DNA of 64,000 nt from Achromobacter xylosoxidans (GTDB lineage Bacteria > Pseudomonadota > Gammaproteobacteria > Burkholderiales > Burkholderiaceae_B). The notes below the pieces were generated by a model. The model did not search any database. It saw nothing but the letters and a program-made list of their open reading frames with translations, and was not told the origin of the DNA. The translations under genes were made by a program, and so were the position numbers. Where the stretch lies: positions 4,712,001 to 4,776,000 of the forward strand of contig NZ_CP061008.1 of the NCBI RefSeq assembly GCF_014490035.1. Reading direction: 5' to 3'. Below, one piece after another: positions 24,067 through 46,562 of this stretch. Each line of letters opens with the position of its first letter. The stretch's first letter is position 1.

Positions 24067-24426
24067 ATGACTCAAAACGCCACCTCCGATACCTGGGGCT
24101 TTGCCCATCCCGATTGCCGCGGCGCGGCCGCCCTGCTGTTCTTCATGAACGACCTGGCGCGGGTGATCAACCAGTACCTGAGCCCGGGACAGCTATCCAA
24201 CGAAGCGCTGGCCGATGCGCAAAAGGCGGTCGATGCCTTGCTGGCCCGCTACGTGGACATTCAGGCCGCCCCCGAAGCCTTCGACAACGAGCGCATCGAA
24301 CTCGCCCTGGAAACCGAAAACCAGCCTGACGGCCAGACCAGCGCGCAAGTGGCGCTGCGCATGTCGCCACGCCTGGAAGGCCTCATCATCGAGGCCCAGC
24401 GCCAGGCTCGCCCGGCGACCCATTAA
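24067..24426 (+). CDS. Hypothetical protein
   Basis: The 119-residue soluble, mostly helical, acidic protein begins MTQNATSDTWGFAHPDCRG. It has no signal, motif or transmembrane segment that I can name. Codon use fits the neighbouring genes, supporting a real gene. It ends in TAA before a long stretch without genes. Confidence 0.6.
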   Translation: MTQNATSDTWGFAHPDCRGAAALLFFMNDLARVINQYLSPGQLSNEALADAQKAVDALLARYVDIQAAPEAFDNERIELALETENQPDGQTSAQVALRMSPRLEGLIIEAQRQARPATH

Positions 24427-25093
24427 AGGCCTGGAACGGGGGAGGAGTCTCCCCCCACCACAAAACGCTTGCCAAAAGCATCAACTGCCTGTACTATTGC
24501 TGGTTGAGTTCTGCCGTTTTCGCCAAATTCCATACGAAAAAACGCGGTGATAAACGACGGCGCTGGCACTGAGGCCTGTACATCAGCCCCTCCCCAGACG
24601 CCGAAGCAGACCCTCGAAAATACCCAAGCCCAAGCATCCCGTCCCATTTGCGAAAACCGCAAATCCGGATTGCGGCCTGGAACAAAACGCCTTCACCCAA
24701 CCGCCAGTCCGGCTTGGCAAGAAGCAACAAGACAATCAGCGGCGCCTACAACACGCGCAAGCGACGAATACCGATAACCGCGCCGCAACCAGCAGGGCCT
24801 GTCCGTCCTGCATGACTTCTCGGGCCGCGCATGTCCGCATGCATGCTTTGCGCTTGTTCGCGCATCGCGCAACCCGAAACGACGCTGTCCCGGACTGATG
24901 GACAGCGTCGCGCCGCCAGGCCGTGCGCGCAAAACATGAGAATGCGCAAAAGGACGGCGGCATATATGCGTTAGTGTCACGACACACGCCTGCCCGATTC
25001 AATACGGCTGGCAGCGGCACGCGGCAGGAACGCTGCGCGCCACGTGGCCAGACGCGGCTTTTCCCATAACTAGAAACCAAGAGAACAAACACC
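24427..25093. other. Gene-poor stretch with a 10-bp hairpin
   Basis: No ORF here has convincing codon use, a ribosome-binding site and family features together. The only strong local structure is GACGCTGTCC (24881-24890) paired with GGACAGCGTC (24900-24909) over a 9-nt loop, without a T-run. A second short dyad, GTGTCACGACAC, lies near 24975. The region may hold a small RNA or decayed coding sequence. Confidence 0.5.
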
Positions 25094-43775: not shown

Positions 43776-44849
43776 TTACTTGCCGGTCGTAAGGGCGACC
43801 CGGCGGCGTTCGCGCACCGCATGAGCCAAACGCTCGAGCACGGCGACCGAGGCGTCCCAGTCGATGCAGCCGTCGGTGATGCTCTGGCCGTAGACCAGCG
43901 GCGTGCCAGGCACCATGTCCTGGCGGCCGCCCAGCAGGTGGCTTTCAACCATGACGCCCACCAGGCGGCTGTCGCCCGCTTCCATCTGGCGCGCCACGTC
44001 TTCGATGACCAAGGGCTGGTTCTCGGGCTTCTTGCTGCTGTTGGCGTGGCTGGCGTCGATCATGATGCGCTGCGCCAGACCGGCCTTGGACATGTCCTGG
44101 CAGGCCGCTTCGATGCTGGCCGCATCGTAGTTCGGCGTCTTGCCGCCGCGCAGGATGACGTGGCAGTCCTCGTTGCCGGCCGTCGACACAATTGCGGAAT
44201 GCCCGCCCTTGGTCACCGACAGGAAATGGTGCGGCTGGGAGGCAGCCTTGATCGCATCGACCGCGATCTTCACATTGCCGTCGGTGCCGTTCTTGAACCC
44301 CACCGGACACGACAGTCCCGATGCCAGCTCGCGATGCACCTGGCTTTCCGTCGTCCGAGCCCCGATCGCCCCCCAGGAGACCAGATCCGCGATGTACTGC
44401 GGCGTAATCATGTCCAGGAACTCGCAACCCGCCGGCAGTCCCATGCTGTTGATGTCCAGCAGCAGCTCGCGGGCGACGCGCACGCCCTTGTTGATGTCGA
44501 AGCTGCCGTCCAGATCCGGATCGTTGATCAAACCCTTCCAGCCCACGGTGGTGCGCGGCTTCTCGAAGTACACGCGCATCACGATTTCCAGGTCGGCGCT
44601 CAGCCGGTCGCGCACAGGCTTCAGACGCTTCGCATATTCGATGGCCGCGCGGGTGTCGTGGATGGAGCAAGGACCGATCACGACGATCATCCGGTCATCC
44701 ATGCCGTGCAGGATGCGGTGCATCCCCTGGCGGGCGGCGAACACGGTGTCGGACGCCTCCTTGGTGCAGGCGAACTCGCGCATGACGTGCGCGGGCGGGT
44801 TCAGCTCTTTGATTTCTCGAATGCGAAGGTCGTCGGTATTGTGTGACAC
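43776..44849 (-). CDS. aroG: 3-deoxy-7-phosphoheptulonate synthase (class I DAHP synthase)
   Basis: The enzyme condenses PEP and erythrose-4-phosphate, the first step of the shikimate pathway. The 357-residue class I-alpha protein has VIGPCSIHD, RVYFEKPRTTVGWKG, GARTTESQVHRELASGLSCPVGFKNGT split across the active site, and IMIDASHANSSKKPENQ. The start is GTG 44849, with AGGAG 7 nt upstream. Just upstream on the same strand lie a Phe/Tyr-rich leader ORF and a strong hairpin, suggesting attenuation by aromatic amino acids. Feedback type (Phe, Tyr or Trp) is not decided by sequence. Confidence 0.94.
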   Translation of the reverse strand: MSHNTDDLRIREIKELNPPAHVMREFACTKEASDTVFAARQGMHRILHGMDDRMIVVIGPCSIHDTRAAIEYAKRLKPVRDRLSADLEIVMRVYFEKPRTTVGWKGLINDPDLDGSFDINKGVRVARELLLDINSMGLPAGCEFLDMITPQYIADLVSWGAIGARTTESQVHRELASGLSCPVGFKNGTDGNVKIAVDAIKAASQPHHFLSVTKGGHSAIVSTAGNEDCHVILRGGKTPNYDAASIEAACQDMSKAGLAQRIMIDASHANSSKKPENQPLVIEDVARQMEAGDSRLVGVMVESHLLGGRQDMVPGTPLVYGQSITDGCIDWDASVAVLERLAHAVRERRRVALTTGK

Positions 44850-44914: not shown

Positions 44915-44947
44915 AAAAAAAGCCGCCAGTTCGCTGGCGGCTTTTTT
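44915..44947 (-). terminator. Attenuator terminator in the aroG leader (3:4 hairpin)
   Basis: GCCGCCAG pairs with CTGGCGGC around CGAA, flanked by A/T tracts that give a seven-U run on the minus-strand RNA. It lies 65 nt before the aroG start and 21 nt past the leader ORF stop. Its 5' arm (44932-44940) can pair instead with 44991-44999 in the leader, forming an alternative antiterminator. Confidence 0.88.
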
Positions 44948-44967
44948 GGGGGGATTCTTTCCAAACT

Positions 44968-45051
44968 TCAGATTGAGCGCGTCCCTTCCTCCGCCAGCGG
45001 CTTCAGAAAACCATAAAAATAAAAATAAAAGGCGGGGGACGCGAATTTCAT
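44968..45051 (-). CDS. aroG leader peptide, Phe/Tyr-rich
   Basis: The 27-codon ORF starts MKFASPA and continues with FYFYFYGF at residues 8-15, then a neutral tail ending RSI before TGA. The control codons are all TTT or TAT, in a window whose genes prefer TTC and TAC. The run is the only Phe/Tyr-rich stretch of this kind here. The ORF overlaps region 1 and region 2 of the leader RNA fold. The ribosome-binding site is poor, so translation may start on a near-leaderless mRNA. This reads as a transcription-attenuation leader of the pheL type. Confidence 0.72.
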   Translation of the reverse strand: MKFASPAFYFYFYGFLKPLAEEGTRSI

Positions 45052-45059
45052 GGGGATTG

Positions 45060-45088
45060 ACTCTAGCACAAATTTTTCGAGCCGTCAT
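45060..45088 (-). promoter_or_regulatory. Candidate promoter for the aroG leader
   Basis: On the minus strand ATGACG (45088-45083) and TAGAGT (45065-45060) are 17 bp apart, each matching 4 of 6 consensus bases. Start of transcription would be only a few bases before the leader ATG at 45051. The gap between the tldD stop and the leader is 50 bp, so a promoter must lie here or inside tldD. Confidence 0.4.
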
Positions 45089-45101: not shown

Positions 45102-46562
45102 TCAGGCGGTGCCGCCGACGGTCAGGCCTTCCATGCGGACCGTGGGCATGCCCACGCCCACGGGCACGCTCTGGCCATCCTTGCCGCACGTACCCACGCC
45201 GGAATCCAGCTGCAGGTCGTTGCCTATCATGGTGACGCGGTTCATGGCGTCCGGACCGTTGCCGATCAGGGTGGCGCCCTTGACCGGATAGGTCACCTTG
45301 CCGTTTTCGATCATGTAGGCTTCGGACGCCGAAAACACGAACTTGCCGTTGGTGATGTCGACCTGGCCACCGCCGAAATTGACCGCGTACAGCCCGCGCT
45401 TGACGGACGACACGATTTCCTCGGCCGGCTTGTCGCCCGCCAGCATGTAGGTGTTGGTCATGCGCGGCATCGGCAGGTGCGCGAACGATTCGCGGCGGCC
45501 GTTGCCGGTGGCGGCGGTCTTCATGAGGCGCGCGTTCAGCGTGTCCTGCATATAGCCGCGCAGGATGCCGTCCTCGATCAGCACGTTGCGCTGGGTGGCA
45601 TTGCCTTCGTCGTCGATGTTGAGCGAGCCGCGGCGATCGGGGATGGTGCCGTCGTCGACCACCGTCACGCCCTTGGAGGCGACGCGCTCGCCGATGCGGC
45701 CCGAGAACACGCTGGACCCCTTGCGGTTGAAGTCGCCTTCCAGCCCGTGGCCGACAGCCTCGTGCAACAGGATGCCGGGCCAGCCCGAACCCAGCACGAC
45801 AGTCATTTCACCGGCCGGCGCGGGGCGCGCTTCCAGGTTCACCATGGCCTCGTGCACCGCGCGCTCGACGTAGCCCTGCAGCATTTCATCCGTGAAATAG
45901 GCCAGGCCCAGGCGGCCGCCGCCGCCCGCGTGACCCATTTCGCGGCGGCCATTGCGCTCGGCGATGACGGTCAGCGACAAGCGCACCAGCGGGCGCACGT
46001 CGGCGGCCAGGCGGCCGTCGCTGCCGGCTACCAACACCACGTCATATTCGGCGCCCAGGCCCGCCATGACCTGAATCACGTGCGGATCGCGGGCGCGCGC
46101 CATGCGCTCCACGCGTTCCAGCAGCGCGACCTTCTCGGGAGCGCTCAAGGTGGCAACCGGATCGATATCGGCATACAGGCTGCGGCCGATCTCGGCTTCG
46201 ACCTGCGCCGCCACCTTTACCTTGCCGGCGCCGCGGCGCGCGATGCCGCGCACCGCGTGCGCAGACGACAACAGCGCTTCGGGCGACAGCGAATCCGAAT
46301 AGGCAAAGGCGGTTTTCTCGCCGCTCACGGCACGTACCCCGACGCCCTGGCTGATCGAGAAACTGCCGGTCTTGACGATGCCCTCTTCCAGGCTCCAGCC
46401 CTCGCTGCGCGTGTACTGGAAATACAGGTCGGCGTAGTCGACCTTGTGAGTGAAGATCTCACCCAGCGCGCGCGCCATGTCCGCCTCGGTCAGGCCCCAG
46501 GGGTCTAGCAGCAGGGATTTGGCGGTGGCGAGGGAAGCAATGGCGGGATCGATGATTTTCAT
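45102..46562 (-). CDS. tldD: Metalloprotease TldD
   Basis: The 486-residue subunit of the TldD/TldE zinc protease processes microcin B17 and CcdA in E. coli. The active-site [11 protein letters not shown] near residue 262, with the downstream Cys and Gly-rich segments ([17 protein letters not shown]), is intact. No tldE (pmbA) gene is in this window. The ATG 46562 gives the full family length. It is transcribed toward the aroG leader but ends 50 bp before it. Confidence 0.93.

Follow-up and report, generated by a model that had tools for sequence, protein, structure and literature searches.

The aroG gene in the window (the whole 64,000-nucleotide stretch of DNA analysed here) is preceded by a leader that very probably acts as a ribosome-mediated transcription attenuator. 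A first-pass annotation had proposed this reading, and it is upheld by the comparison with relatives, in which the run of aromatic codons and the two competing helices, 2:3 and 3:4, are conserved and covary. The spacing of these elements and their association with DAHP synthase genes point the same way.

Elements of the aroG leader

On the minus strand the order is tldD (ending at 45102), the leader ORF, the terminator and aroG (starting at 44849). The aroG product scores 584.2 bits against NCBIfam NF006723 (cut-off 568), and its top PDB matches include DAHP synthase chains described as Phe-regulated or Phe-sensitive. This enzyme catalyses the opening step of aromatic amino acid synthesis. The features of the locus are as follows.

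45060..45068, minus strand: extended −10-like element TGCTAGAGT, ending 8 nt before the leader AUG (from the sequence)
44968..45051, minus strand: leader peptide ORF MKFASPAFYFYFYGFLKPLAEEGTRSI, 27 codons plus TGA (script check)
45031..45043, minus strand: region 1, CGCGTCCC plus CCGCC, pairing with 44985-44978 and 44995-44991
45007..45030, minus strand: putative regulatory codons 8-15, TTT TAT TTT TAT TTT TAT GGT TTT (script check)
44991..44999, minus strand: region 2, CGCTGGCGG (script check, covariation)
44978..44985, minus strand: GGGACGCG, the strand directly after region 2 and partner of region 1 (script check)
44932..44941, minus strand: region 3, GCCGCCAGCG, the strand common to antiterminator and terminator (script check, covariation)
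44922..44929, minus strand: region 4, CTGGCGGC, 3′ arm of the terminator (script check, covariation)
44915..44921, minus strand: U tract of the terminator, seven T (script check)
43776..44849, minus strand: aroG, AroG-type DAHP synthase (NCBIfam NF006723 equivalog), the gene that would be controlled

The script check found the 27-codon ORF at 45051-44968 of the first-pass annotation to be exact, with Phe-Tyr-Phe-Tyr-Phe-Tyr-Gly-Phe at residues 8-15, and its coordinates for regions 1-4 and the U tract to be correct base by base. In region 1, CGCGTCCC (45043-45036) is the exact complement of 44985-44978, and an inner pairing joins CCGCC (45035-45031) to GGCGG (44995-44991). Regions 2 (44999-44991) and 3 (44940-44932) are perfect complements over 9 nt, and a GGGA after region 2 can alternatively pair with a TCCC before region 3. 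The GC-rich terminator consists of GCCGCCAG (44941-44934), a CGAA loop and CTGGCGGC (44929-44922), followed by seven T (44921-44915). As in attenuators of the trp/phe/his class, a short leader ORF carries a run of codons for the product amino acids, an intrinsic 3:4 terminator with a U tract stands before the structural gene, and an alternative 2:3 antiterminator uses strand 3 as well. Single-sequence fold z-scores were modest (−1.5 to −2.8). A consensus scanner reported no terminator at the aroG leader, presumably because its rule extends the stem through A:U pairs and consumes the U tract.

Averaged over 69 leaders, the strand that closes region 2 (GGCGGAGGAAGGG, 44978-44995 on the minus strand of the window) resembles a Shine-Dalgarno sequence and may slow or hold the ribosome. 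Its anti-Shine-Dalgarno binding is strong, yet a separate pause role was rejected as not arguable in its own right because the same bases serve helices 1:2 and 2:3.

Distribution of the leader

A detector was built to recognize a U-tailed hairpin, an upstream complement of its 5′ arm and a preceding short ORF with an aromatic cluster. It was applied to the sequence upstream of 151 DAHP synthase relatives: 80 named loci (the best 80 of at least 592), 70 members of the window's family (40 of them hand-picked across genera) and one paralog. The element was detected in 121 of these 151 regions: at 58 of the best 80 named loci, at 63 of the 70 family loci and not at the paralog, a second DAHP synthase gene in the window's genome (L082). 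By comparison, dinucleotide shuffles of the upstream regions gave 2 matches in 755, and tiles of the window gave 3 in 566, two of which were the aroG leader element itself. The third tile (about 24116-24625, minus strand) was a weak match with three aromatic residues in nine (MLLASVLWWGETPPPFQAFNGSPGEPGAGPR). This detection rate is the least biased figure in support of the leader.

Among the named hosts are Bordetella, Burkholderia, Cupriavidus, Janthinobacterium, Xanthomonas, Bradyrhizobium and Mesorhizobium. The first-pass annotation had suggested checking relatives for conserved codons. Such conservation is found: the aromatic run and the stems recur, with covariation, both in the window's family and in genomes of the Burkholderia, Oxalobacteraceae, Xanthomonas and Rhizobiales types. 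A leader ORF could be seen by eye in five regions that the detector missed (L035, L039, L050, L065, L144), and L066 offered just 55 nt of upstream sequence. Two members are doubtful (L113, L143), and in some cases (e.g. L043, L051, L056, L123, L136) the detector's best 2:3 match spans 6 nt and is unlikely to be the real pairing. The element was absent from six of the 70 family regions (L116, L130, L141, L147, L148, L151), three of which belong to genomes of at most 2.0 Mb; in all six, aroG appears close behind the end of a tldD-like gene. Some 17 of the best 80 named loci (of at least 592) also lacked the element, as did the Rhodocyclaceae, Ferrovum and Vibrionaceae loci in the detector set.

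A covariance model (R1) was built from the elements of relatives and used to search whole genomes. The window's own genome gave one full-length match, the other 23 being partial. Among 299 Pseudomonadota genomes, R1 matched in 73 at E ≤ 0.001 and at full length in 41 at E ≤ 1e-6; every one of these 41 matches lay less than 150 nt upstream of a DAHP synthase match, the distance being 37-142 nt at 30 of the loci. In 150 genomes of the window's order there were matches in 35 at E ≤ 1e-5, 34 of them full-length at E ≤ 1e-6, and all 34 preceded a DAHP synthase gene within 150 nt (nine are shared with the phylum sample). At 34 loci checked by coordinates the distance was 27-149 nt. Matches in close kin are expected, since R1 was made from relatives, and all these counts are lower bounds, since the strict filter misses divergent members. 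At two loci (G433:C1:2636366-2638529 and G542:C1:2562486-2564629) two DAHP synthase genes stand in tandem, with the leader before the first.

Weaker full-length matches in G329 and G163 also preceded DAHP synthase genes. Weak full-length matches in enteric-type genomes (G281, G332, G293, G412, G274, G396) did not; from E. coli gene order, we take these to be the positions of pheL or pheM. A weak full-length match in G232 (29 bits) and a partial one in G416 (1.8e-6) lay on contigs without a DAHP synthase match. Membership of the aroG leader in an Rfam family was rejected, as all scores fell below gathering: Phe_leader (RF01859) reached 22.2 of the 55 bits needed and ranked eighth-best in the window's genome, the window itself gave 13 weak matches with none at the gathering score, and six further leader-bearing loci matched no family at that score.

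Covariation of the alternative helices

The alignment A1 contained 70 of 72 non-redundant leaders, the doubtful L113 and L143 having been left out by hand (L080 had been dropped earlier for its weak aromatic run). Alignment A2 held a hand-chosen 26 of the 37 non-redundant leaders of the window's family. In A1 the 2:3 helix was paired in 89% of cells and the 3:4 helix in 94%, figures that are inflated because the detector chose rows partly for pairing and aromatic content. The first-pass annotation had named covarying 2:3 and 3:4 pairs as the sign to look for in relatives, and for both helices cells with changes on both sides exceeded the shuffles: 13 against a shuffled mean of 3.9 for 2:3, and 37 against 13.3 for 3:4, with 0 of 500 shuffles reaching either value. 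One of five measures for 2:3 (pairs changed on both sides, 66 of 500) and one for 3:4 (further pair types, 89 of 500) were not clear of the shuffles. At L021 all three strands had changed together. Single-sequence z-scores for 2:3 averaged −2.3, with 46 of 72 leaders below −2.

When region 4 was omitted, RNAalifold found the antiterminator and a short inner helix, which in the window is GGGA/UCCC. This inner helix was specific to cognate strands (0 of 2,000 permutations over 69 rows; 5 of 5,000 and 70 of 5,000 in the two smaller sets, of 34 and 35 leaders), in permutation statistics that, throughout, keep shared ancestry. Complementarity of region 1, at the start of the ORF, to the strand around and beyond region 2 (helix 1:2) behaved differently in the two sets: within the window's family it was strong (z of −6.5 and −6.7, 0 of 5,000 permutations), whereas among L001-L080, the best 80 of at least 592 loci, it gave no signal (618 and 4,196 of 5,000 permutations). 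A single consensus 1:2 hairpin for all lineages was not supported, the single-sequence z averaging −1.0 with 14 of 72 below −2. For the window's family RNAalifold preferred a hairpin formed locally over region 2, in which a single pair had changed on both strands; an outer helix appeared only in an 18-row subset of A2, from which 8 of 26 rows had been removed by choice.

Position of the aromatic codons and proposed mechanism

Distances were measured on 69 of the 72 leaders. Aromatic codons filled 91-93% of positions in the bins 18-26 nt before the region-2 core, 82-93% across the bins 18-29 nt, 64-82% at 27-35 nt, 25% at 15-17 nt, 71% at 12-14 nt and at most 7% in the four bins 0-11 nt before the core, figures raised by the same choice of rows as those for pairing. 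This spacing fits stalling with region 2 left free over most of the run, and is marginal for the last aromatic codon, 12-14 nt from the core.

The stop codon in the window lies 21 nt past the region-2 core; it lies 21 or 24 nt past it in 34 of 69 leaders and 6-33 nt past it in 66 of 69. The first-pass annotation had a ribosome at the stop codon covering region 2, a detail that needs revision in part: at this distance the core would stay uncovered and its edge be touched at most, so that a terminating ribosome would sit on the partner strand of region 1, just after region 2. Because region 2 would hardly be covered, passage of the ribosome together with the 1:2 helix would have to finish the job.

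According to the model, RNA polymerase would start at or just before the leader AUG with a ribosome trailing behind it. A shortage of charged Phe-tRNA or Tyr-tRNA, and in other lineages of Trp-tRNA too, would stall the ribosome within the aromatic run, 12-33 nt ahead of the region-2 core, where it would break 1:2 and, for most of these codons, leave region 2 free. The free region 2 would capture region 3 as it emerges, no 3:4 terminator would form and aroG would be transcribed. With charged tRNAs in good supply, the ribosome would reach the stop codon and occupy the strand after region 2, or alternatively release there and allow 1:2 to re-form; region 3 would then pair with region 4, and transcription would end at the U tract near 44915. 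Termination in vivo, stalling and a response to Phe and Tyr (elsewhere also to Trp), like the start of transcription at the AUG, are predictions from this arrangement of sequence elements.

Amino acids that the leader may read

The first-pass annotation had contrasted the TTT and TAT codons of the leader with a regional preference for TTC and TAC. For Phe the contrast holds against all three genes compared (TTT:TTC of 4:1 in the leader versus 0:7 in aroG, 2:9 in tldD and 3:12 in a glcD-like gene). For Tyr it holds against aroG (TAT:TAC of 3:0 versus 1:4) and is not clear against tldD and the glcD-like gene (7:6 and 4:3). At the 88 loci with a complete aroG gene, TTT:TTC was 287:67 in the leaders versus 97:465 in the aroG genes, and TAT:TAC was 116:99 versus 162:360; 83 of the 88 leaders had more U-ending codons than their own aroG gene.

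In the best nine-residue stretch, the aromatic residues of the 121 leaders were Phe and Tyr in 74, Phe, Trp and Tyr in 44, Phe alone in two and Phe and Trp in one. The run contained Trp in 45 leaders: 8 of the 63 from the window's family and 37 of the 58 from L001-L080, mostly Burkholderia, Xanthomonadales and Rhizobiales.

This composition bears on whether the attenuator is tuned to Phe alone, its Tyr codons causing little or no response. In C. glutamicum, Phe limitation is reported to enhance transcription under the aroR leader and Tyr availability to be without effect (Neshat 2014, as told in PMC11802643), so that Tyr sensing may fail at the aroG leader too; Phe codons also outnumber Tyr codons (354 versus 215) in the 88 leaders. 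We nevertheless regard tuning to Phe alone as unlikely, as Tyr is present in the run of nearly all leaders, and the window's leader alternates F-Y-F-Y at positions that should permit stalling.

Reading of both Phe and Tyr would complement a second element in the window's genome. Upstream of trpE (L228, about 1205-1280 of the reverse complement), a Trp-rich ORF (MNVSIQNQMLGASWRWWRLSSGWR) and a U-tailed hairpin form what appears to be a classic-looking Trp leader, and no such leader was found within 1.5 kb upstream of the pheA match. With Trp apparently read at trpE, the aroG leader would cover Phe and Tyr in a division of labour.

A quick and rough AroG tree with 82 rows, 81 of them labelled, was made without a mixture model; on it, presence of the leader changed seven times. 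The Rhizobiales and Xanthomonadales AroG proteins shared one starred 28-row group with the AroG of the window, which makes shared descent, or transfer of gene and leader together, likelier than many separate origins. It is conceivable, at a little under an even chance, that these leaders form one old attenuator family on the entry enzyme of the pathway in alpha-, beta- and xanthomonad-type Proteobacteria. Such a family would serve as a pathway-wide gauge, reading Phe and Tyr nearly everywhere and Trp where it was added, with a transcript often beginning at the leader start codon and, in the window's family, an extra covarying helix of the 1:2 type.

Predicted origin and extent of the leader transcript

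The best −10 match was found 5-9 nt before the start codon in 40 of 71 non-redundant leaders, compared with 7.5% expected from shuffles; in Burkholderia- and Oxalobacteraceae-type leaders it lay mostly 26-56 nt upstream. The consensus scanner reported no −35/−10 pair and no promoter at the window's site. Transcription probably starts at or next to the leader AUG, and the proximity of the −10 match suggests that hardly any RNA, if any, precedes the AUG in the leader transcript, as is reported for trpL of S. meliloti (PMC10117765).

If transcription ended at the U tract, a short RNA of about 137 nt with a small peptide would be expected, and S. meliloti rnTrpL and peTrpL offer a precedent for action in trans (PMC10117765, PMC7298713). 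That the terminated leader RNA or the peptide of aroG also acts in trans is improbable in our judgement, since the cis parts already explain the conservation and the peptide ends vary between lineages. Least credible by far is that the hairpin merely terminates tldD and the ORF is spurious: tldD ends directly upstream on the same strand and terminators are common at such gene ends, but a −10-like element stands between tldD and the leader ORF, many genera retain the ORF, region 2 and the terminator as a set upstream of aroG, with covariation, and the detection rate against shuffles led us to discard both chance and a tldD terminator alone.

Discussion

The probable attenuator before aroG has its closest precedent in the aroR-aroF attenuator of C. 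glutamicum, and there are further counterparts among leaders of aromatic amino acid genes. E. coli pheL-pheA and pheM-pheST are Phe attenuators (Rfam Phe_leader, RF01859) and likewise have a Phe-rich leader with alternative helices; unlike these, the aroG leaders precede a different gene and carry Tyr and often Trp codons. Attenuation of E. coli aroF is said to have been hypothesised by Camakaris in 1980 (cited in PMC8632094). In six genomes that look enteric (L210, L212-L215 and L217), the detector found no leader before the best DAHP synthase match of each.

The first-pass annotation had set this kind of leader against the control known from E. coli. Before a DAHP synthase gene, it is not unprecedented. 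In C. glutamicum the aroR leader before aroF encodes Phe-Tyr-Phe and was predicted to be an attenuator (PMC4046766), and attenuation there was tested and is reported to respond to Phe and not to Tyr limitation (PMC11802643). Both systems place a Phe/Tyr leader peptide before a DAHP synthase gene; compared by description, the C. glutamicum case belongs to the Actinobacteria and is described as having Phe-Tyr-Phe, whereas the aroG leaders occur in Pseudomonadota and mostly have five to nine aromatic residues in nine.

Other attenuators before proteobacterial DAHP synthase genes have been predicted, namely an upstream RNA element of Shewanella aroF described as an ‘attenuator sensing tyr-tRNA’ (PMC2659441) and, in Merino's list, attenuators before a DAHP synthase-tyrA operon in two Vibrio species (PMC1173090). 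These predictions belong to different members of the gene family, in different lineages, and their descriptions give no leader peptide sequence; at two Vibrionaceae loci from other species (L077, L079) no aroG-type leader preceded the DAHP synthase gene. The predicted element uORFC-13-1 before aroF also combines a Phe-coding uORF with a terminator ahead of a DAHP synthase gene, and its 24 representatives, reported only from Acholeplasma and environmental sequences, have at least one Phe codon (PMC8632094).

The literature consulted held no description of the present aroG leader, although an earlier prediction is possible (Vitreschak 2004, Neshat 2014); the main text of Naville 2010 (PMC2965389) contains neither ‘phospho-2-dehydro’ nor ‘aroma’. 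The aroG leader is thus a widespread and apparently undescribed addition to a known class of attenuators. It would provide a natural sensor of aromatic supply for aromatic-producing strains, and the coexistence of Phe/Tyr and Phe/Tyr/Trp leaders is a natural experiment on the number of amino acids that a single leader can weigh. A further prediction is a short conserved RNA together with a small peptide, which small-protein surveys might otherwise be unable to explain.

Control of DAHP synthase is usually told from E. coli, in which the protein repressors TyrR and TrpR are named for aroF and aroH (PMC11802643). These repressors act on the same enzyme step as the aroG leader; in a large part of the Proteobacteria, that step is seemingly run by an RNA switch read by the ribosome.
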